A stretch of DNA of 64,000 nt from Halanaerobium saccharolyticum (lineage in GTDB: Bacteria > Bacillota > Halanaerobiia > Halanaerobiales > Halanaerobiaceae): assembly GCF_004362045.1 (NCBI RefSeq), contig NZ_SNWX01000005.1:1-64000 (forward strand), in the 5' to 3' direction. Both the position numbers and the translations under genes were made by a program. Under the pieces are notes generated by a model. It made no database searches and had not been told where the DNA came from. It saw nothing but the letters and a program-made list of their open reading frames with translations. Position 1 is the first letter of the stretch. Every line of letters starts with the position of its first letter. Below are positions 2,057 through 50,298 of this stretch, piece by piece.

Positions 2057-2084
2057 AACCAACAAGTTAACATACAACTTGGTT
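2057..2084. promoter_or_regulatory. Probable AraR operator
   Basis: An inverted repeat with perfect arms CAAGTT (2063-2068) and AACTTG (2076-2081) and outer AACC/GGTT bases lies directly on the predicted transcription start of the regulator operon. This is the expected place for autorepression by the GntR/LacI-type regulator encoded just downstream. The half-site ACAAGTT recurs at 17095-17101 in front of the FGGY kinase. Assignment to AraR is an inference. Confidence 0.55.
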
Positions 2085-2105
2085 AAAAGTAGGGAGAGTT
2101 GTTGT

Positions 2106-3182
2106 ATGAAAAAAGCTAAATACAGAGAAATTATTGATTATTATAAAAATTACATAGAACATCACGAATTAATTGATGGGGATTTACTGCCTTCAGAATC
2201 TGAGGTAGCTGATAAATTTAAATACAGTCGAGATACAGTTAGAAGAGCTTTAGAGGAATTGGAGAAAGAAAAGATTGTTTCCAGAAAAAGAGGAAAAGGA
2301 ACATTTTATCGTGATTCTAAAAATACTGTTAAAGAAAAGCGAATTGCTGTGATAACTACTTATTTATCAAATTATATCTTCCCAAATATAATTTCCGGGA
2401 TTGAAGAAGTGGTTAGTTCAAAACATTATACTTTAAATCTTGCTAATACAGATAATGATCCCAATAAAGAAAGAAAGCATTTAAGAAAAGTTATAGACAA
2501 TGGTGTTGACGGCTTAATCATTGAGCCTACCAAAAGTGCATTAGACACTCATAATATGGATTTATACAGAGAACTTAAAGCCAAAAAAATTCCTTTTGTT
2601 ATGTTAAATGCTTATTATAGAGAATTAAATCCATCTTATGCAATTGTCAATGACTACAAAGGTGGATATAAAGCGGCTCAGTATTTGCTGCAGTTAGGAC
2701 ATACAAATATTGCTGGTATTTTTAAAGAAGATGATCTGCAGGGGATTTTTAGACAAAAAGGCTTCAAAAAGGCTTTAACTGATTATGGAATTGATCCAGA
2801 ATCAGCAGAGATTGGCACCTATATAACAAGTCAAATTTCCTCTTATCCTTATCACTGGATGGATAAGATGCTGTCTCATAAAAATAGACCGACAGCGGTT
2901 GTCTGCTATAATGATGAAATTGCAGTTGATATTGTCAAAGCAATTATTGATAATGGTTTAAAGGTTCCAGATGATATTTCGGTTGTTTCTTTTGATGATT
3001 CAATTTTAGCTACAGCAACAAATGTTAAATTGACAACTGTCAGACATCCAAAGGAAGAACTGGGAAGACATGCTGCCCGTTTATTATTTAATATGCTGGA
3101 AATCGGGGTTGAAAAGCCCAGATTTTTATATAATCCAGAATTAGTAGTTAGAGATTCTTGTAAAGAGTTAAGAAGGAGGTAG
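2106..3182 (+). CDS. araR: GntR/LacI-hybrid arabinose repressor AraR
   Basis: A 358-residue regulator with two parts. Residues about 1-70 form a GntR-type winged helix (LPSESEVADKFKYSRDTVRRAL), ending in the typical GKGTFY wing. Residues about 78-358 form a LacI/periplasmic-binding-type effector domain. This combination is characteristic of AraR, which represses arabinose genes until L-arabinose binds. The ATG at 2106 has a GGGAGAG site; an in-frame TTG at 2079 lies inside the operator and is less likely. It is followed after 10 bases by an ABC transporter and then araA and araD, which supports the arabinose role. A perfect-arm palindrome over its own start site suggests autoregulation. Confidence 0.82.
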   Translation: MKKAKYREIIDYYKNYIEHHELIDGDLLPSESEVADKFKYSRDTVRRALEELEKEKIVSRKRGKGTFYRDSKNTVKEKRIAVITTYLSNYIFPNIISGIEEVVSSKHYTLNLANTDNDPNKERKHLRKVIDNGVDGLIIEPTKSALDTHNMDLYRELKAKKIPFVMLNAYYRELNPSYAIVNDYKGGYKAAQYLLQLGHTNIAGIFKEDDLQGIFRQKGFKKALTDYGIDPESAEIGTYITSQISSYPYHWMDKMLSHKNRPTAVVCYNDEIAVDIVKAIIDNGLKVPDDISVVSFDDSILATATNVKLTTVRHPKEELGRHAARLLFNMLEIGVEKPRFLYNPELVVRDSCKELRRR

Positions 3183-9336: not shown

Positions 9337-9356
9337 TTTTTAAAAAGGTGAAAAAA

Positions 9357-11195
9357 TTGAGTGAAAGTATTTTTGAAATTAATAAATTAACCACTTTTGA
9401 TGATGACTGGTCTAAGATAGAGGATGTCAATTTAAAATTAGAAAGCGGCAATATTTTTGCTCTGGTTGGAGAAACTGGAGCTGGCAAAACAACTTTTGTC
9501 AATGTTTTAGCCGGTATAATTGATGATTATGATGGTGAAATTATTTACAAGAATAGATTGTTAACTAAAAAAGAGCAAAAGAATATTTTTGGTTTTATCT
9601 ATCAAAAATCAACTTTAATAAATAAGATGACAATTGCAGAAAATTTATTTTTTGTGGATTTTCCTACCAGAAAAATAGGTCCTTTTATCAGCTGGAAGCA
9701 GGTTAAGAAAAAGGCAAAAGAATACCTGGATTATTTTGATATTGACTTTGATTTGAATAAAAATGTGGGAGTTTTAACTTCAGAGGAAAAGAAAATAATT
9801 GAATTTATTAAAGTATTTATAAAAGATCCCGAAATTATTATTTTACATGAGCCTACCACAAATTTAAGTATTGACAGCTTAGATAAATTATACAGTATTA
9901 TCAAAAAATTAAGAGAAAAAAACAAAATAATAATTTATGTAACAAAGCAGTGGGAAGAGGGACTGAAAGTAGCTGACAAAATTGCTGTTTTAACTAAAGG
10001 GAAAATTGCAGGAGTTTTAGAGGCTGAAGAAGCAAAGAAGAATCCTAAAAAGTTATTAAATTTATTTTTGGGAATTTATGATGAAAGAGTAAAAAAAGAT
10101 GAGACTCCTGATGTTATTGACTCAATTTTTAAAGCAGCTGAGTTTTTGACATCTGAATATGAATTAAAGGACGTACTTAAATTCTTAGCAGAAAAAGTTA
10201 CAGAAATTATGGGAGCGGATTCCTGTGTTATTAATTTAGTTGATGAAAAGACTGAAACAATAATTGATAGAATTGAATTTAAAAAAACTCAGAATAAGAT
10301 TCCACAAATCAAAAAAGATAAAATATTTGAGATAACAAAAGATAATAAATTATTCTATACCAATTCCAGGGAAAAGGGATTTAATTTCCTATTTGATGGT
10401 GACAGTTATGGAATTAATACTGTCATTATGTCTTCAGTTCTGATAAGATCACAGCTGGCAAGTGTAATAAAACTGCATTATAGAAATATTTATGTCTACT
10501 CTGAGATTGAATGGAAGTATCTTTCTACCTTCGCCAGACAGGCAGCTATTGCCATTGAAGACACAAGATTAATGGGAAGATCAGCCCTATTACAGGAAAG
10601 TCATCACAGAATAAAAAACAATCTGCAGTCTATTATTAGTCTGATATCTATTCAAAAAGACTTTTTAAAAGAGGATGTAGATTATGATTCAGTAATTAAT
10701 ATCTTAAATGATATTATGTCGAGAATAAAAAGTATTGCTGCAGTACATGATCTTTTATCAAAAGACAAAATGGGCAGAAGTATAATTAACATTAAAGAAA
10801 TTATTAATAAAGTATTAGATTTTGCTGCCTATCCATCATTGAATAGAGAAATAAAAATAAAAAAGGAACTGGAAGATATATTTATTCCATATAATAAGGC
10901 TACTACGATAGTCTTAATAGTTAATGAATTGGTAGCTAATTGTTATGAACACGCTTTTTCAGATCAGGATTTTGGAAAAATAATTGTGAAATGCAAAAAA
11001 ATAAATGATAGAATATCGCTAGTTATTCAGGATAATGGTAAGGGAATGCCGGAAGATTTTGATGTTGAAAACTCTACAACTTTAGGTTTAAGTATTGTTT
11101 ATTCGATTATTAATAATGAATTTAATGGTAAAATAGATTTTAACGCTTTAGACAAAGGAACAAAAGTCACAATTAAAATTCCATTTAAATATTAG
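9357..11195 (+). CDS. Fusion of degenerate ABC ATPase, GAF domain and HisKA_2 histidine kinase
   Basis: About 612 residues. Residues 1-235 resemble one CUT2 sugar ABC ATPase module with an intact Walker A (GETGAGKTT, near 39-47). The signature is lost (LTSEEKK where LSGGQ-like is expected), Walker B aspartate is a histidine (ILHEPTT, near 160), and the H-loop histidine is replaced (YVTKQW). Residues about 255-400 look like a GAF domain. Then comes a HisKA_2 dimerisation motif HHRIKNNLQ (about 416-424) and an HATPase domain with NELVAN (about 522) and DNGKGMP (about 558). No membrane segments. It probably binds ATP and acts as a soluble sensor. The TTG at 9357 has an AAAGGTG site; GTG at 9348 is the alternative. 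The cognate regulator follows after a 13-base gap. Confidence 0.85.
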   Translation: MSESIFEINKLTTFDDDWSKIEDVNLKLESGNIFALVGETGAGKTTFVNVLAGIIDDYDGEIIYKNRLLTKKEQKNIFGFIYQKSTLINKMTIAENLFFVDFPTRKIGPFISWKQVKKKAKEYLDYFDIDFDLNKNVGVLTSEEKKIIEFIKVFIKDPEIIILHEPTTNLSIDSLDKLYSIIKKLREKNKIIIYVTKQWEEGLKVADKIAVLTKGKIAGVLEAEEAKKNPKKLLNLFLGIYDERVKKDETPDVIDSIFKAAEFLTSEYELKDVLKFLAEKVTEIMGADSCVINLVDEKTETIIDRIEFKKTQNKIPQIKKDKIFEITKDNKLFYTNSREKGFNFLFDGDSYGINTVIMSSVLIRSQLASVIKLHYRNIYVYSEIEWKYLSTFARQAAIAIEDTRLMGRSALLQESHHRIKNNLQSIISLISIQKDFLKEDVDYDSVINILNDIMSRIKSIAAVHDLLSKDKMGRSIINIKEIINKVLDFAAYPSLNREIKIKKELEDIFIPYNKATTIVLIVNELVANCYEHAFSDQDFGKIIVKCKKINDRISLVIQDNGKGMPEDFDVENSTTLGLSIVYSIINNEFNGKIDFNALDKGTKVTIKIPFKY

Positions 11196-11208: not shown

Positions 11209-11790
11209 ATGAAGAAGTTGAAAATTCTAATAGCTGAAGATGAATATCTGGTTCTGATGGGATTGAAAAGCAATCTTAAAGAACTGGGACATGAAATCAT
11301 TGCAGAGGCTATGAATGGTAAAGAAGCTATTGAACTAGCAAAAGAAAAATCTCCAGACCTGATCATTGCAGATATAAATATGCCTGAGATTGATGGCATA
11401 GAAGCTGTTAAACAGATTAATAAAGATCAGGTAATTCCAAGTATTATTGTAACCGGGTATTCTGATGACGAACTAATTGAAAAAGCAAGCAAGGTAGGAG
11501 TTTTTGCCTATTTAGTTAAGCCAGTCGGCCTGGAAGAACTGAAGGCTTCAATAATAATTGCAATGAATAAATACGAAGAATTTAAAGAAGTTAACAGAGA
11601 ATTAAAAGATCAAAAGAAGGCTTTAGAAAACAGAAAACTTATTGAAAGAGCTAAAGGGATACTAATGGATACACTTTCTCTGACTGAAGCCGAAGCAATG
11701 AAAAAATTACAGCAGAAAAGTCAGGAAGAAAATTCCAAACTGGTTGAAGTGGCAAAAAACATTATTGAAATGAATGAATATTTAAACTGA
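11209..11790 (+). CDS. ANTAR-type response regulator (RNA-binding antiterminator)
   Basis: A 193-residue protein with a receiver domain and a C-terminal ANTAR domain. The receiver has the phospho-acceptor aspartate D55 in IIADINMPEIDG and the conserved lysine K104 in YLVKPV. The ANTAR part (about 137-193) has the hallmark ERAKGILM with alanine, lysine and glycine at 148-150, then the helix with EAMKKLQQ. ANTAR proteins bind paired hexaloop hairpins in leader RNA and prevent termination. A matching structure lies directly downstream at 11925-12027. The ATG at 11209 has TAGGAGA 9 bases upstream. Its kinase partner is the gene just before it. Confidence 0.93.
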   Translation: MKKLKILIAEDEYLVLMGLKSNLKELGHEIIAEAMNGKEAIELAKEKSPDLIIADINMPEIDGIEAVKQINKDQVIPSIIVTGYSDDELIEKASKVGVFAYLVKPVGLEELKASIIIAMNKYEEFKEVNRELKDQKKALENRKLIERAKGILMDTLSLTEAEAMKKLQQKSQEENSKLVEVAKNIIEMNEYLN

Positions 11791-11892: not shown

Positions 11893-11924
11893 GTTTTTAG
11901 AAAATAATAAATATTAAATACTTT

Positions 11925-12036
11925 GTGCTGATGGGGGTACATTGTATTAAGGTGATGGAGCCTTGTATTATATTTTTGGGTGAACTATATTTAATTAGTT
12001 CATTATCTAAAGATATAATGCAGGGCTTTTTATGTT
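11925..12036 (+). ncRNA. Leader RNA with two ANTAR-like hairpins overlapping a terminator
   Basis: Hairpin 1: GTGCT (11925-11929) pairs with GGTAC (11936-11940) around loop GATGGG. Hairpin 2: AAGGT (11949-11953) pairs with GCCTT (11960-11964) around loop GATGGA. Both sit in the shared context TGATGGRG, 8 bases apart. A terminator forms from 11959-11973 pairing with 12013-12027 (15 bp, two wobble pairs) with an inner stem TGAACTA/TAGTTCA, followed by a T-rich tract from 12027. The 5' arm of the terminator includes the 3' side of hairpin 2, so the two folds exclude each other. This is the layout of known ANTAR antitermination targets. The loops have A and G three positions apart but offset by one from the published A1/G4 rule in my folding. 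Confidence 0.75.
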
Positions 12037-12205
12037 TTTATATAAATTTTTAAGATTTTTATAAGTAAATAAGCAAATATATTTTGAAGGGAGGGAAAAT
12101 AATTTTGCATTTGGGATTATGTTGACTGGAATAATATAATATTATAAATAAATAACTATTCCTCTCATATTTAAAATATTCATAAAATTATAGGAGGTTA
12201 TTATT

Positions 12206-13123
12206 TTGAAAAAATTAGTAGTATTATTAACTTTGGTTTTAATGGTTTCTGTATTTAGCGGAGTAAGTTTTGCGCAGGATGATGATCAAATTTCAATTGG
12301 GATGTCTTTTCAGGAAATGAATAATGAGTATTTTATAGTAATGAGAGAAGCTCTAGAGTCAGCTGCTAAATCTATTGGAGCGGAAGTAATGTATACAGAT
12401 GCCAGACATGATGTAAATAAACAGATCAGTGATGTGCAGGATATGGTAACAAAAGGCATTGACATCCTATTACTTAATCCCGCTGATTCTGTAGGCGCTG
12501 AAGCAGCCGTTCAATATGCAAAAGATCAGGGAGTTTATGTAATTGCGATTGATGCTCAAGCTGAAGGTCCAATAGATGCTTTTGTTGGTTCTAAAAACTA
12601 TGATGCAGGTTATAAAGCAGGTCAAGAAATGGCAAAGGATCTGAATGGTGAAGGTAAAGTTGCTATTTTAGATGGTATTCCAGTAGTACCAATCTTAGAA
12701 AGAGTTGAAGGATTTAGAGCCGCAATTTCTGAATATCCTGATATTGAGATTGTAGATGTACAGAATGGTCAGCAGGAACGTTCCAAAGCGATGTCAGTTA
12801 CAGAAAATATGATGCAGGCTAATCCTGATTTAGATGCTATTTTTAGTGTAAATGATACTGGAGCTTTAGGTTCTTTAGCAGCAATTAAAAGTGCTAATGA
12901 AGATATTAAATTGTACAGTGTTGATGGACATCCAGAAGCTATAGAAGCAATTCTTAATGGAGATATTTTTCAGGCGACAAGTGCTCAGTTTCCAAGAGAT
13001 CAGGTTAGGATCGGTATTGGCATTGGTTTAGCTAAATACTGGGGAGCAGAAAAAATGCCAGAAAAAATACCAGTACCTGTTAAATTAATTAATGATGAAA
13101 ATGCAGAAGGATTTAGCTGGTAA
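12206..13123 (+). CDS. Periplasmic sugar-binding protein of the ANTAR-controlled transporter
   Basis: A 305-residue RbsB-type binding protein. The signal peptide ends near A23 (SFA-QDD) and has no lipobox cysteine. The mature part begins ISIGMSFQEMNNEYF, typical of ribose- or polyol-type binding proteins, and later shows DARHDVNKQISDVQDM and FSVNDTGALGSLAAI. The start is TTG at 12206 with an AGGAGG site. It lies about 180 bases after the leader terminator and is followed by a 15-bp perfect hairpin. The dehydrogenase at the operon end suggests a sugar alcohol or rare pentose ligand, but this is uncertain. Confidence 0.87.
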   Translation: MKKLVVLLTLVLMVSVFSGVSFAQDDDQISIGMSFQEMNNEYFIVMREALESAAKSIGAEVMYTDARHDVNKQISDVQDMVTKGIDILLLNPADSVGAEAAVQYAKDQGVYVIAIDAQAEGPIDAFVGSKNYDAGYKAGQEMAKDLNGEGKVAILDGIPVVPILERVEGFRAAISEYPDIEIVDVQNGQQERSKAMSVTENMMQANPDLDAIFSVNDTGALGSLAAIKSANEDIKLYSVDGHPEAIEAILNGDIFQATSAQFPRDQVRIGIGIGLAKYWGAEKMPEKIPVPVKLINDENAEGFSW

Positions 13124-13144
13124 TAAATTTGTAATATTATTTAA

Positions 13145-13174
13145 GAGGATTCTCCCTTTAAAGGGAGAATCCTC
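13145..13174 (+). terminator. 15-bp perfect hairpin between binding-protein and ATPase genes
   Basis: Arms 13145-13159 and 13160-13174 are perfect reverse complements with core GATTCTCCC/GGGAGAATC. No T run follows, so it more likely protects the binding-protein message or partly reduces downstream expression than stops transcription fully. Confidence 0.75.
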
Positions 13175-13192
13175 AAAAATGAGGTGTTTAAT

Positions 13193-14704
13193 TTGGATAA
13201 TATATTAGAAATTAAAAATGTTACTAAAGAATTTCCTGGAGTTCTGGCTTTAGATAATGTTAGTTTTAATATCAGAAGAGGAGAAGTCCATGTTTTAATT
13301 GGAGAAAACGGAGCAGGGAAGTCAACATTAATGAAAATTTTATCTGGAGTTTATCAGGCTAATAGTGGTAAGGTTTTATTAAATGGTGATGAAATTGATT
13401 TTAGTAATCCAAAAGAAGCTCAGTTAGCCGGTATCAGTATTATTTATCAGGAGTTTAGTTTAATTCCTTATTTAAATGCAGTTGAAAATATATTTTTGGG
13501 TAGAGAATATAAAAAAAATGGTGTTTTAGATAAAAAAAGAATGACTGAAGAAGCAAAAGACTTACTTGATACATTTGAGGTTGAAATTGATTTAGAAAAA
13601 TCGGTTAATCAATTGAGTGTTGCAGAACAGCAATTTATAGAGATTGCTAAGGCAGTTTCTATAAATGACAATGTTCTGATTTTAGATGAGCCAACTGCTA
13701 CTTTGACCAATCAAGAAACAGAAATTTTATTTAATTTAATTAGAAACTTAAAAGAAAAGGGAGTTACGATGATTTTCATTTCTCACCATTTAGAAGAAGC
13801 TTTTGAAATTGGAGATAGACTTACCTGTTTAAGAGATGGAAAATGGGTAGGAACAGAAAACATTTCTGATTTAAGCGAAAAGAAGATAATTAAGATGATG
13901 GTTGGGAGAGATATAGGTGATACTTTCCCCGATAGAGAAGGAAAATATCAAAAAGAAATTATGATTGAAGTTAACGATCTAAAAAGAAATGAAAAAGAAG
14001 AGTTTATTAATTTTAAGGTAAGAAAAGGAGAAATATTGGGGGTAGCTGGTTTAGTCGGTTCTGGGAGAACTGAAATGGCCAGAGCATTAATTGGGGCAGA
14101 TAAAGTTTTAAGTAAAGAAATATATATTAATGGAAAAAAAGTTGAAATAAATTCTCCTTCAGATGCTTTAGATAATGGAATTGGATTAATTCCTGAAAAT
14201 CGAAAATCTCAGGGCCTGATTTTAGGACTAAGTGTTAAAGACAATATTTCGATTAACAGTCTTGATAAAATCTTAAAAAGCAATTTATTTATCAATAAAA
14301 AAGAAGAGAAAAAAAGATCACAAAAATTAGTTGAAGATTTAAATATTAAAACTCCGAGCTTAAAACAAACTGTTAAAAATTTAAGTGGTGGTAATCAGCA
14401 AAAAGTAGTTTTGGCAAAATGGCTGGGTACTGATAGTAATGTTTTAATATTTGACGAACCAACTCGAGGTATAGATGTCGGTGCTAAGTTAGAAATTTAT
14501 AAATTGATGAATGAGTTAGTAGATATGGGAATTTCAATAATAATGATTTCTTCTGAATTACCAGAAGTTCTAGCAATAAGTGATAGGATTATGATAATGC
14601 ATAAGAATAAAATTAATGCTGTTTTAGATAACAATGAAGATGTAGATCAAGAGACTATAATGTATTACGCTACTGGAGGGGAACAATATGACAGGGCAAC
14701 TTAG
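13193..14704 (+). CDS. Sugar ABC transporter, dual ATPase (second system)
   Basis: About 503 residues with two ABC modules. Module 1 has Walker A GENGAGKST, VAEQQ in the signature region and ILDEPTATL with H-loop ISHH. Module 2 has GLVGSGRTE, LSGGNQQK and IFDEPTRGIDVG. It powers the importer formed with the preceding binding protein and the following permease. I prefer the TTG at 13193 because GAGGTG lies 6 bases upstream; GTG at 13184 overlaps that site. The stop overlaps the permease start by 17 bases, indicating translational coupling. Confidence 0.9.
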   Translation: MDNILEIKNVTKEFPGVLALDNVSFNIRRGEVHVLIGENGAGKSTLMKILSGVYQANSGKVLLNGDEIDFSNPKEAQLAGISIIYQEFSLIPYLNAVENIFLGREYKKNGVLDKKRMTEEAKDLLDTFEVEIDLEKSVNQLSVAEQQFIEIAKAVSINDNVLILDEPTATLTNQETEILFNLIRNLKEKGVTMIFISHHLEEAFEIGDRLTCLRDGKWVGTENISDLSEKKIIKMMVGRDIGDTFPDREGKYQKEIMIEVNDLKRNEKEEFINFKVRKGEILGVAGLVGSGRTEMARALIGADKVLSKEIYINGKKVEINSPSDALDNGIGLIPENRKSQGLILGLSVKDNISINSLDKILKSNLFINKKEEKKRSQKLVEDLNIKTPSLKQTVKNLSGGNQQKVVLAKWLGTDSNVLIFDEPTRGIDVGAKLEIYKLMNELVDMGISIIMISSELPEVLAISDRIMIMHKNKINAVLDNNEDVDQETIMYYATGGEQYDRAT

Positions 14705-15659
14705 TGATAAAATTAAGAATAACAATTTTAAAGAATTACTTAAAAAACCAGAAGTTTTAACTTTTGCCGGCTTAATCTTACTTTCTTTATTTATGTCGAT
14801 TTTTACAGATACTTTTCTTACAGGTAGAAACCTGGTTAATGTAGCTCGACAGATTTCAATTAATGGCATTATAGCTGTTGGGATGACCTTTGTAATTTTA
14901 ACAGCTGGTATTGACCTTTCAGTAGGGTCGGTTATGGCTTTTTCTGGAACAATGCTGGCTGCAGGAATGGCAGATTGGGGCTTACACCCTGTTTTAGCTA
15001 TATTTTTTGCTTTATTAGTTGGTGGTCTATTTGGATTAATTAACGGTACTTTAATTTCTTATGCTAATATGCCACCTATTATCGTAACCCTGGCAATGAT
15101 GGAAGTTCCAAGGGGACTGGCCTTATTGTATACAGGTGGATATCCACTCTCAGGTTTGCCAAGTTCTTTTTCTGTTCTCGGTAGAGGTTATGTATTTGGA
15201 TTTTTACCTGTACCTGTTTTGATAATGGCTGTGGTCTATTTAATTGCCTATATTTTGCTGACCCAGCTTCCATTCGGCAGATATATTTATGCAATTGGAG
15301 GTAATGAAGAAGCTGTTAGATTATCCGGTATTAAAGTAAAAAAATATAAAATATTTGCCTATGTGATCAGTGGTTTGACAGCAGCAACCAGTGGTATAGT
15401 TATAACATCTCGTTTAATGTCCGGTCAGCCAATGGCAGGTACTGGATTTGAACTTGATGCAATTGCTGCAGTTGTTTTAGGTGGAACAGATATAGCTGGT
15501 GGTCGAGGTAGTATTATCGGTACAATCATTGGGGCTTTTACTCTTGGAGTATTAACAAATGGTCTTAATCTTTTAGGAGTTTCCCCCTATGTTCAGAGAG
15601 TTTTTAAAGGGTTAATTATTTTATTAGCTATCTACTTTAGTTCTAAAAAGAAAAAATAA
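14688..15659 (+). CDS. Sugar ABC transporter permease (second system)
   Basis: A 323-residue RbsC-type permease with the usual GIDLSVGSVMAFSG motif after the first helices, the cytoplasmic loop VRLSGIKVKKYK and the GTDIAGGRGSIIG segment near the C-terminus. The ATG at 14688 lies inside the end of the ATPase gene with a GGAGGGGA site. It forms the channel of the ANTAR-controlled importer. The next gene is a zinc-dependent dehydrogenase 25 bases downstream, suggesting the imported substrate is oxidised directly. Confidence 0.9.
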   Translation: MTGQLSDKIKNNNFKELLKKPEVLTFAGLILLSLFMSIFTDTFLTGRNLVNVARQISINGIIAVGMTFVILTAGIDLSVGSVMAFSGTMLAAGMADWGLHPVLAIFFALLVGGLFGLINGTLISYANMPPIIVTLAMMEVPRGLALLYTGGYPLSGLPSSFSVLGRGYVFGFLPVPVLIMAVVYLIAYILLTQLPFGRYIYAIGGNEEAVRLSGIKVKKYKIFAYVISGLTAATSGIVITSRLMSGQPMAGTGFELDAIAAVVLGGTDIAGGRGSIIGTIIGAFTLGVLTNGLNLLGVSPYVQRVFKGLIILLAIYFSSKKKK

Positions 15660-15684
15660 TTTAAAAATTAGGAGGAGTTATTAA

Positions 15685-16761
15685 ATGAGTGAATTACCAG
15701 AAAAAATGAAAGCTGTAAAGGCCTATGCACCAGAGGATTACAAAGTTGAGGAAGTTGATCGTCCAAAAGCAGATCCAGGAGAAGTAATTATTAAAATTAG
15801 TGCCTGTGGAATCTGTGGTAGTGATTTAAAAGCTTATCACGGAAGTGATATGTTCTGGGGTGGAGATGATCCCTGGTTAAAATCACCTGTTACTCCAGGT
15901 CACGAATTCTTTGGTACTGTTGTTGAACTTGGCAAAGGTGCAGCAGAAATGCATAAAGTAGAAATTGGAGATAGAGTTACAACAGATCAGATAAAACCCT
16001 GTGGAGAATGCCGATTCTGCAAAAGTGGAAAGTACTGGATGTGTGAAGTCCATGATATGTATGGATTCCAGAAAGATATAGCTGAAGGTGGCTGGGCAGA
16101 GTACATGAAGATTTATCCTAACTCTGAAATTTATAAAATACCTGATTCAGTAACTTTTGAAGAAGCAAGTTTAATTGAACCTATGGCCTGTGCTGTGCAT
16201 ACAGTTCAGAGAGCAGAAATAGAATTTGAGGATGTAGTTGTTCTGGCAGGAGCTGGAACTCTGGGTTTAAGCATGACTCAATTAATTAAAATGAAAACTC
16301 CAAAAAAATTAATTGTCCTAGATTTAAATGAAAAACGCTTAGAATTAGCTAAAAAACACGGGGCTGACATGGTAATAAATCCGGCAAAAGAGGATGCAAT
16401 TAAAATTGTTAAAGATCTAACTGATGGCTATGGCTGTGATGTTTATATTGAAGCTACAGGTTCTCCAGCAGGAGTAAAGCAGGGTCTTGAAATGGTTAGA
16501 AAATTGGGTACTTTCGTAGAATTTAGTGTATTTGGGGAAGAAACCACCACCGACTGGAGTGTTATTGGTGACCGTAAAGAACTTGATATTAGAGGTTCAC
16601 ATCTGGGACCATATACTTATCCAATAGTCATTGATTTACTTGATAGAGGTTTATTATCTGCAGAAGGTTATGTTGCAAAAACATATCATTTAGAAGATTT
16701 TGAAGAGGCATTAGAAGAAGCGCATGATAAAGATAATATTAAAGTATTATTAAAACCGTAA
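15685..16761 (+). CDS. Zinc-dependent medium-chain dehydrogenase, polyol type
   Basis: A 358-residue MDR-family enzyme. The catalytic zinc region has C41 and C44 in ACGICGSDLKAYHG and GHEF downstream. Four structural-zinc cysteines are in PCGECRFCKSGKYWMC. The nucleotide fold has AGAGTLGLS, followed by the acidic stretch VLDLNEKR that favours NAD. It resembles erythritol/threitol and other polyol dehydrogenases more than simple alcohol dehydrogenases. It is the last gene of the ANTAR-controlled transporter operon and is followed by a strong terminator. The likely role is oxidation of an imported polyol to a ketose; the exact substrate cannot be read from sequence. Confidence 0.82.
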   Translation: MSELPEKMKAVKAYAPEDYKVEEVDRPKADPGEVIIKISACGICGSDLKAYHGSDMFWGGDDPWLKSPVTPGHEFFGTVVELGKGAAEMHKVEIGDRVTTDQIKPCGECRFCKSGKYWMCEVHDMYGFQKDIAEGGWAEYMKIYPNSEIYKIPDSVTFEEASLIEPMACAVHTVQRAEIEFEDVVVLAGAGTLGLSMTQLIKMKTPKKLIVLDLNEKRLELAKKHGADMVINPAKEDAIKIVKDLTDGYGCDVYIEATGSPAGVKQGLEMVRKLGTFVEFSVFGEETTTDWSVIGDRKELDIRGSHLGPYTYPIVIDLLDRGLLSAEGYVAKTYHLEDFEEALEEAHDKDNIKVLLKP

Positions 16762-48681: not shown

Positions 48682-50298
48682 TTGAAGAAAGGTTTAAGTA
48701 TTTTATTTTTAATGTTGGTTCTGTCTTTAGCTTTTACAGCTGCAGCAGGAGCTCAGGATGATTTAAAGGAATTTGATGTTTTCATATCTGTTTCCTTACC
48801 TGACTATTCTGGCTCATCAATTGTTGGTGACATTATTCAGAAAGAAACAGGGGTCAAATTAAACAGAGAATATCTCGTTGGAGATTTAGAGCAGAAAGTC
48901 GGTTTAATGATTGCCAGTCAGGATTATCCTGATATGCTGGTAGCAGCTCATTTTACTGACAAATTTGTTGAAGCAGGTGCTTTAATTCCTCTGAATGATT
49001 TAATCGAAAAACATGCTCCAAACATCAAAAAATATTATGCAAAGCATCTGGATGCTTTAAAAAAGGAAGATGGGAATATTTATTATTTACCTCAGCTAGC
49101 CATTCCTTTTGAGCCAGCTGAAAGAAGATATCCATCAGTAGGATTTTTCATCAACAAAAGAGTGCTGGAAGCAAATGATTATCCATTTATAAAATCATTT
49201 GATCAGTATTTTAAGTTAATTGAAGATTACCAAAAAGAACATCCAGAATATAATGGCCAAAAAACAATCGGGTATACTACTTTATTTGATGGTTGGAGAA
49301 GATTTGCAACCACCAATGGTCCTATGCACTTAATGGGTTACCCAAATGAAGGTGGATTTGTTCCAGTAAAAGAAGGAGAAGAATATGTTGTAAGACCTTA
49401 TTATGGAAGTAATGTTGAAAAGTACTATTATAAAAAATTAAATGAAATGTACAATAAAGGTGTTGTAGATCAGGAAGCATTTGTATCTAATTTTGACCAG
49501 TACTTAGAAAAGATAAGTTCTGGCCGAGTTTTAGGAACACTTAACCAGTACTGGCAGGTTCAGCAGGCTCAGGAAGTTTTAATTAATGAACGTCCTGACA
49601 GCATTATGGTACCTTTCCCTGTAACCTATGATCCAATTGTTGAAGAACATATGAGAGATAAACCATATGTTCAGACTACACAGGGTATGGGTATTACAAC
49701 TGCCTGTGAAGATCCAGTTGCAGCAATTAAATACTTAGATTATCTTGTAAGCATTGAAACACAGCATTTAATTCAGTGGGGTATTAAAGGTAAGCACTAT
49801 CAGGTAGATGAAGATGGTATGTTCTACAGAACCGAAGAACAGCTGGCTAAGTTTAGAGATCCTAACTGGGTTAGAGATGTTTTTGGTCGTCATTATTTTT
49901 ATAATGCATTTCCAAGTCTAACTGGTCTTGGTCCTAATGGGAACAGTTTTATGCCCAGCAGACAGCCCAGTGCAATTTATGCAAACAGCTCAGCTGCAGA
50001 AAAAGAGGTAATGGATGCTTATGGTGTTAAATCATTTACCGGCTTGTATAATAAGCCATTTGAAGATAGAAAATACTTCCCACTCTGGACAATTACCTTA
50101 CCTACAAACTCTAAAGCTCAGATTGAATCAACAAGAATGACTAATGCTTTAGTACAGCATGTTCCAACACTGGTTATGGATTCAACAGAGAAGTTTGAAG
50201 CTAACTGGGATGCTTATACTGAACAGATTAGTGGTTTAATGGATGCTCAAATTAAAGAATATCAAAAACAGATTGACTGGAGAATGGAAAACTGGTAA
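48682..50298 (+). CDS. Extracellular solute-binding protein (LplA/YtcQ type)
   Basis: A 538-residue binding protein of the large LplA/YtcQ group. The signal peptide ends near A24 (AGA-QDD), without lipobox. It pairs with LplB/YtcP-type permeases encoded next. This group imports complex oligosaccharides such as pectin or xylan fragments, including aldouronic acids. The setting between GH8 and GH10 supports xylan fragments. TTG at 48682 follows AAGGAGGG. A strong hairpin separates it from the permeases. Confidence 0.87.
   Translation: MKKGLSILFLMLVLSLAFTAAAGAQDDLKEFDVFISVSLPDYSGSSIVGDIIQKETGVKLNREYLVGDLEQKVGLMIASQDYPDMLVAAHFTDKFVEAGALIPLNDLIEKHAPNIKKYYAKHLDALKKEDGNIYYLPQLAIPFEPAERRYPSVGFFINKRVLEANDYPFIKSFDQYFKLIEDYQKEHPEYNGQKTIGYTTLFDGWRRFATTNGPMHLMGYPNEGGFVPVKEGEEYVVRPYYGSNVEKYYYKKLNEMYNKGVVDQEAFVSNFDQYLEKISSGRVLGTLNQYWQVQQAQEVLINERPDSIMVPFPVTYDPIVEEHMRDKPYVQTTQGMGITTACEDPVAAIKYLDYLVSIETQHLIQWGIKGKHYQVDEDGMFYRTEEQLAKFRDPNWVRDVFGRHYFYNAFPSLTGLGPNGNSFMPSRQPSAIYANSSAAEKEVMDAYGVKSFTGLYNKPFEDRKYFPLWTITLPTNSKAQIESTRMTNALVQHVPTLVMDSTEKFEANWDAYTEQISGLMDAQIKEYQKQIDWRMENW

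Follow-up and report, generated by a model that had tools for sequence, protein, structure and literature searches.

Organization of the locus

The window, i.e., the whole 64,000-nt stretch of DNA analyzed here, carries a histidine kinase gene followed by the gene of a response regulator, a leader RNA with an intrinsic terminator, and an operon encoding a CUT2 sugar importer together with a dehydrogenase (Table 1). The first-pass annotation had placed the kinase gene between araD and an ANTAR regulator; indeed, the gene starts 20 bases past the end of araD, and the ATG of the response regulator gene follows at 11209. Further upstream, positions 2079-3182 encode a protein combining a GntR-type DNA-binding N-terminus with a LacI-type sugar-binding domain (AraR-like). 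The first CUT2 operon and araA/araD follow this gene.

Between the two candidate starts of the kinase gene, TTG at 9357 fits better than GTG at 9348 because an AAGGTG Shine-Dalgarno sequence is situated just upstream of the TTG, overlapping the GTG. The residue numbers of the kinase are counted from GTG 9348.

Table 1. Coordinates of the genes, protein domains, motifs and RNA elements of the kinase locus.
Feature	Coordinates	Strand	Remarks
ABC-GAF-HisKA_2 histidine kinase gene	9357..11195	+	612 aa from TTG 9357 (615 aa from GTG 9348); architecture in 19 genomes
ABC domain resembling the CUT2 N-half; predicted to be a pseudo-ATPase and the input module	9369..10076	+	Pfam/NCBIfam, tree, AlphaFold/Foldseek
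Walker A GETGAGKTT	9468..9494	+	Intact in window, lost in 4/19 homologues
Walker B Asp to His (H167)	9846..9848	+	Motif reads IIILHEPT
H-loop His to Lys (K200)	9945..9947	+	Motif reads YVTKQW
GAF domain	10161..10559	+	Pfam; present in 16/16 homologues scanned
HisKA_2 dimerisation/phospho-acceptor domain	10596..10817	+	Predicted phospho-His H420 in HHRIKNNLQ
HATPase_c kinase domain	10899..11189	+	N531, D562, G564, G566 invariant
Response regulator with ANTAR RNA-binding domain (ATG 11209)	11209..11790	+	Response_reg 1.4e-28, ANTAR 3.7e-18
P1 hairpin, TGTGC-TGATGGGG-GTACA	11924..11941	+	Leader pattern, covariance-model match; covariation in homologues
P2 hairpin, AAGG-TGATGGAG-CCTT	11949..11964	+	3' arm doubles as the 5' terminator arm
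Intrinsic terminator	11960..12031	+	Mutually exclusive with P2
CUT2 substrate-binding protein, first gene past leader	12206..13123	+	Pfam/NCBIfam
CUT2 tandem ATPase, Walker B and H-loop intact	13184..14704	+	Pfam/NCBIfam, residue check
CUT2 permease, proposed docking partner of kinase	14688..15659	+	Pfam, synteny; docking inferred
Zn-dependent polyol-type dehydrogenase, same operon	15685..16761	+	Pfam/NCBIfam

Domain architecture of the kinase

The kinase had been described as a CUT2-like ABC module fused to a GAF domain and a HisKA_2 kinase, and the order of the Pfam domains in one open frame agrees with this description: ABC_tran at 25-171 (2e-21), GAF_3 at 272-404, HisKA_2 at 417-490 and HATPase_c at 518-614. 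The phospho-acceptor histidine and the N and G boxes characteristic of HisKA_2 kinases were found, with H419 and H420 invariant along with the HATPase_c residues listed in Table 1. The ABC part was nearest, according to NCBIfam, to the importer ATPases AlsA, XylG, AraG and RbsA of the CUT2 class, along their N-terminal half. Active CUT2 ATPases carry two halves per chain; the kinase has a single ABC_tran stretch, which is followed by the GAF domain and the kinase.

The lack of membrane helices described earlier was borne out by hydropathy analysis. The maximum 19-residue Kyte-Doolittle mean was 1.39 in the kinase, compared to 2.58 in the adjoining permease.

An AlphaFold2 model of the kinase, made from a 16-row alignment, had a mean pLDDT of 76 and a pTM of 0.46; since the pTM is low, the placement of the domains relative to each other is not to be trusted. 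The ABC domain was modeled mostly with pLDDT 80-92, the linker near 245-253 had low confidence, and a single long helix spanned residues 386-440. The top Foldseek matches of the model were ABC nucleotide-binding domains.

The first-pass annotation had also raised the concern that a sequencing error could have joined two genes, and had suggested looking for the same domain order across genomes. The ABC-GAF-HisKA_2 architecture was found in 19 genomes, the same four domains were present in 16 of the 16 homologues scanned, and full-length matches occurred class-wide. Given that the same fusion, mostly with the same neighbours, appears in 19 genomes, an assembly or sequencing artefact joining an ABC gene to a kinase gene has practically no chance of being the explanation.

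Degeneration of the ABC catalytic motifs

Comparison of individual residues upheld the earlier description of the ABC domain as having an intact Walker A, a Walker B with Asp changed to His, and no H-loop histidine (GETGAGKTT, H167 and K200). In addition, the Q-loop Gln is present and the Glu following Walker B is kept.

The motifs were then counted in 19 homologues, the kinase of the window included. Walker A was intact in 8 of them, read GxxGxGKK in 7, with Lys at the Mg-binding Ser/Thr, and was absent in the remaining 4 (L050, L051, L052 and L059). The Walker B Asp was lost in 15 (10 have His in its place, 3 Asn, 1 Tyr and 1 Gln), and the H-loop His in 18, L058 being the sole keeper. By comparison, all the CUT2 ATPases compared had both Walker A and Walker B, as well as the H-loop His save for one row that ended there. 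The mean pairwise identity in Walker A was 0.48 among the kinases vs. 0.97 among the ATPases, while for the whole ABC domain the values were 0.35 and 0.45, respectively.

The Asp of Walker B was retained in four outer-branch members, L058, L062, L063 and L072. The idea of a degenerate domain had been said to fail if homologues showed an intact Walker B and signature. This concern holds in part, as these four members do keep the Asp, but three of them are without the H-loop His.

The absence of an LSGGQ signature, which the first-pass annotation had listed among the signs of degeneration, is true of the kinase of the window but is weak evidence, because catalytically intact CUT2 ATPases are also without LSGGQ. 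At this site CUT2 ATPases have LSVAEQQ, LGISEQQ or LSIAQKQ, with LSVAEQQ and LGISEQQ in the intact ATPases of the window itself, while the kinase family has mostly EEKK.

We also observed that E168 (9849-9851), the Glu after Walker B, was invariant in all members despite the loss of the preceding Asp and, often, of the P-loop.

Distribution, ancestry and selection

The architecture was present in 14 of 61 relatives, in 13 of 59 genomes of the class and in 8 of 398 genomes sampled across the phylum; additional members were found around the distant ones. A search for related loci in genome contigs produced matches to the ABC part or the kinase part alone, and none to the whole architecture.

A tree of 59 ABC domains placed those of the kinases with the N-halves of the CUT2 ATPases, apart from the C-halves, with support of 100/100. 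Within this side they formed one clade, weakly supported (83/40). Thus, judging from the tree, the kinase ABC domain appears to descend from the N-terminal half of a CUT2 ATPase or from beside it. Because the kinase domains have a clade of their own on the N-half side, they are probably no recent copies of the adjoining ATPase. A recent duplication of the neighbouring ATPase was considered as the origin of the domain but found no support, since the kinase ABC domains group together beside all the N-halves, the branch that unites them being weak.

The dN/dS ratios of the ABC part (Nei-Gojobori) were 0.08-0.22 in L050-L052, i.e., in three of the four members without a P-loop, and 0.11-0.13 in L053-L055, with some dS values near saturation. 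These ratios indicate that the ABC domain has been kept by selection even where ATP binding of the usual kind would be impossible. In most of the pairs compared, the GAF domain evolved more slowly than the ABC part.

In G003, G005, G008 and G011, which belong to the same genus as the window, the system was 45-47% identical to that of the window and had a different importer, while in G012, from another genus, it was 65% identical. Such a pattern suggests transfer or loss of whole cassettes.

Two loci showed disrupted kinase genes. L049:8184-9970 (G025) is a kinase remnant, situated behind an araDA-CUT2 operon resembling that of the window, where the ABC and GAF domains break off abruptly; within 70 bases there follows a dehydrogenase fragment 78% identical to the product of the window's gene at 15685, as if a single deletion had taken the end of the kinase, the response regulator, the leader and the importer at once. 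In L046:8566-10419 (G019), a TAG stop splits the kinase gene, leaving most of the ABC domain in one ORF and the rest in another. This is either a pseudogene or a sequencing error; the response regulator and the leader are apparently intact.

Response regulator, importer operon and leader RNA

The regulator next to the kinase gene combines a receiver with an ANTAR domain, as in systems of the EutVW type. The region of its acceptor Asp, DI[NS]MP, and the receiver Lys were invariant in 12 systems.

Nearly all loci, across several orders, shared one arrangement: the ABC-carrying kinase, the ANTAR response regulator, a leader of 260-900 bases, and an operon of CUT2 substrate-binding protein, ATPase and permease. 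There were variations of it. The first downstream gene belonged to the URO-D family in L058, and in L059 the CUT2 permease was upstream of the kinase. In L056, a glycyl radical enzyme came first and CUT2 permeases after it; here (L056:4419-7172) the ANTAR-type leader precedes the gene of this enzyme, which is pyruvate-formate-lyase-like, and the CUT2 permeases beyond it are two in number. In G042 the contig ended after the response regulator, and the RNA model placed the leader on another contig, at whose end it precedes a CUT2 substrate-binding protein and ATPase.

A pentitol or a pentose is a reasonable guess for the substrate of the importer, because the operon contains a Zn-dehydrogenase and, in G012, the same operon continues with an FGGY kinase and an AraD-like epimerase.

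The region 11915-12050 folds at -50.5 kcal/mol (z = -9.5 vs. shuffles) and contains a dual hairpin, the second of which overlaps the intrinsic terminator. Both P1 and P2 were identified in 16 of 18 leaders, some of them by eye and with shorter stems or a longer loop, and P2 sat on the terminator arm in 17 of the 18. Elements with a stem of at least 4 were observed 28 times vs. 0.42 expected from shuffles; the pattern was derived from the same leaders, so that this ratio measures its strength and is no independent test. Independent support came from covariation: in nine aligned leaders, 94% of the cells paired, compared to 33-63% for slid structures, and changes on both sides were seen in 5 of 8 pairs.

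A covariance model built from these nine leaders, with that of the window left out, matched the window at 11924-11964 with an E-value of 7e-4. The same model matched L057, L071 and L056 at E-values from 2e-8 to 2e-5, and the G042 leader too. Searches of 13 whole genomes showed that every match with E < 0.01 falls at these systems. The element of the window went unreported in the whole-genome search of G000, where the first pass retains a limited number of candidates; a direct search found it at 11924-11964. A match at 49985-50021 (E-value 0.075) is situated inside an ORF and was taken as chance. An Rfam scan of the window gave no match.

In 13 aligned leaders, the equivalent of G4 of the hexaloop and the A at position 2 were invariant. 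In the frame that matches the eut loops, position 1 was C, G or T instead of A in nearly all loops, which is a point against an EutVW-like reading. The loop size hinges on a U-G closing pair, without which the loops have 8-9 nt. The leaders of L050, L051 and L052, members without a P-loop, had two P1-type hairpins before P2 rather than one.

Taken at the level of genes and RNA elements, control of the sugar importer by an EutVW-like antitermination two-component system is well supported. The leader RNA at 11924-12031, absent from the first-pass annotation, is most likely bound by the ANTAR partner of the kinase; as the target of that protein, it would mean that the transporter under control, and probably the one being sensed, is the importer at 12206-15659.

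Proposed mechanism and its alternatives

We propose a cytoplasmic two-component system coupled to a transporter, where the importer senses via a docked ABC domain and ANTAR antitermination is the output; we consider the case for this whole scheme evenly balanced. The kinase dimer would present two retired CUT2 ABC domains to the CUT2 importer whose genes lie just downstream, and these domains would dock on its permease, a homodimer. Together with its sugar-loaded binding protein, this permease would then make up the membrane receptor that the kinase itself does not have, and the state of the permease would set the kinase activity through the GAF domain and the coiled-coil segment. By analogy with known families, the HisKA_2 kinase would phosphorylate the ANTAR response regulator, and the phosphorylated regulator would dimerise and hold the P1 and P2 hairpins at 11924-11964. 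The overlapping terminator at 11960-12031 would be prevented from forming, so that the importer operon at 12206-16761 would be transcribed and the importer would be induced by its own substrate.

We give about an even chance to the docking of the ABC domain on the importer permease, the likeliest of the roles considered for the domain. The first-pass annotation had raised docking on a sugar permease, in place of the true ATPase, as one of its two readings. Docking is favoured by the CUT2 ancestry of the domain, since a CUT2 nucleotide-binding domain (NBD) is expected to fit a CUT2 permease; by the near-invariant synteny with a CUT2 importer; by the lack of membrane helices in the kinase and of any other membrane sensor; and by the fact that the fold was kept when catalysis was lost. 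Kinases of this kind are dimers and CUT2 permeases are homodimers, and this match in stoichiometry favours docking as well. Still, the conservation test adds nothing to it, because residues 86-118, where the domain is expected to face the permease, were not conserved beyond the domain average (0.32 vs. 0.41, compared to 0.35 vs. 0.45 for the whole domain). Once the kinase part was accounted for, the distances of the ABC domain co-varied weakly with those of the permease (partial r 0.25, p 0.03), and the invariant E168 is odd for a pure docking domain, which counts against docking.

The same output could be driven by the GAF domain as the true sensor of a cytoplasmic sugar, polyol or sugar phosphate, with the ABC domain serving as a dimerisation aid or persisting as a passive remnant. 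GAF domains commonly bind small molecules, all members scanned have one, and its slower change relative to the ABC part in most pairs compared points the same way. Yet purifying selection acts on the ABC domain in the pairs compared, and a passive remnant would leave unexplained why the CUT2 ancestry of the domain matches the class of the neighbouring transporter. We judged this explanation rather unlikely.

Two other explanations give the ABC domain an active role away from the permease. The first-pass annotation had suggested that the domain could read the ATP level; that is, Walker A would bind ATP or ADP without hydrolysis and the energy state would be reported to the kinase. We consider this quite improbable. 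The intact Walker A of the window and seven homologues and the invariant Glu after Walker B are in line with ATP sensing, but 4 of the 19 members have no P-loop and 7 have GxxGxGKK. Of the four, the three compared are still under purifying selection, which makes a universal ATP-level sensor unlikely; moreover, L050-L052 retain the leader RNA, and L050, L051 and L059 the kinase motifs. What may stand of the suggestion is ATP sensing within the subgroup of the window. Even less probable, in our estimate, is that the partner of the ABC domain is the ATPase of the importer and not the permease, whether the domain makes an NBD-NBD contact with that ATPase or sequesters it. Dimerisation of NBDs is natural for ABC domains, and nearly every operon has the ATPase nearby; on the other hand, a CUT2 ATPase already has its two halves in tandem within a single chain, and no motif of the kinases is more relaxed than Walker A, which belongs to the NBD-dimer interface.

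Going back to docking on the permease, its consequence would be a class of soluble histidine kinases where a retired importer ATPase has become the plug for the permease socket. A two-component antitermination system would thereby use a sugar ABC importer as its transmembrane receptor too. We regard this broader statement as tentative, somewhat short of even.

Signalling by ABC importers and sensing of extracellular sugars by soluble kinases are usually inferred from a few examples of membrane kinases. In the present case, the likely partner follows from the ancestry of the input domain and the target from the leader RNA, which makes the full signal path testable in one operon. If correct, the mechanism would add a pseudo-ATPase turned receptor adaptor, as well as a new type of input for ANTAR antitermination.

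Comparison with known systems

Transporter-gated kinases such as BceS (PMC6978683, PMC7828314) and ANTAR antitermination are already known. In a literature search that left most subscription journals outside, we found no published account of an ABC-GAF-HisKA_2 kinase, nor of any histidine kinase whose input is an ABC nucleotide-binding domain.

The ABC domain of the kinase is related to the N-terminal half of the CUT2 ATPases RbsA, AraG, XylG and AlsA. It differs from them in being single rather than tandem, in its fusion to a kinase, and in the loss of the Walker B Asp and the H-loop His.

BceAB-BceS is a case of a transporter-gated kinase with flux sensing (PMC6978683, PMC7828314). As at the present locus, a two-component system lies beside the ABC transporter that it regulates, and the transporter is the proposed sensor. 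However, BceAB transports peptides and the kinase BceS is of the intramembrane type, whereas here the kinase is soluble, with no hydrophobic segment above 1.39 where a Bce-type kinase has transmembrane helices, and the transporter is a CUT2 sugar importer. In addition, the kinase described here carries an NBD-derived domain and its output is RNA-binding.

A close parallel is EutW/EutV, the ethanolamine two-component antitermination system of Enterococcus, Listeria and Clostridium. There, antitermination acts through dual hexaloops with P2 overlapping the terminator; EutV binds two hexaloops with A1 and G4, and G4 is the only base-specific contact (PMC3369931, PMC8934654). Both systems have a histidine kinase with an ANTAR response regulator and two small hairpins before a terminator, the second one overlapping it, and the G at position 4 of the hexaloop is conserved in the kinase-linked leaders. 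The differences are the ABC domain, which the available text on eut does not describe for EutW; C, G or T at loop position 1 vs. A in eut, and loops of 8-9 nt, rather than hexaloops, if the U-G closing pair is disallowed; also, the target here is a CUT2 sugar importer. From the gene and leader comparisons it is well supported that the ABC-kinase system would work like EutVW, with a shifted loop consensus.
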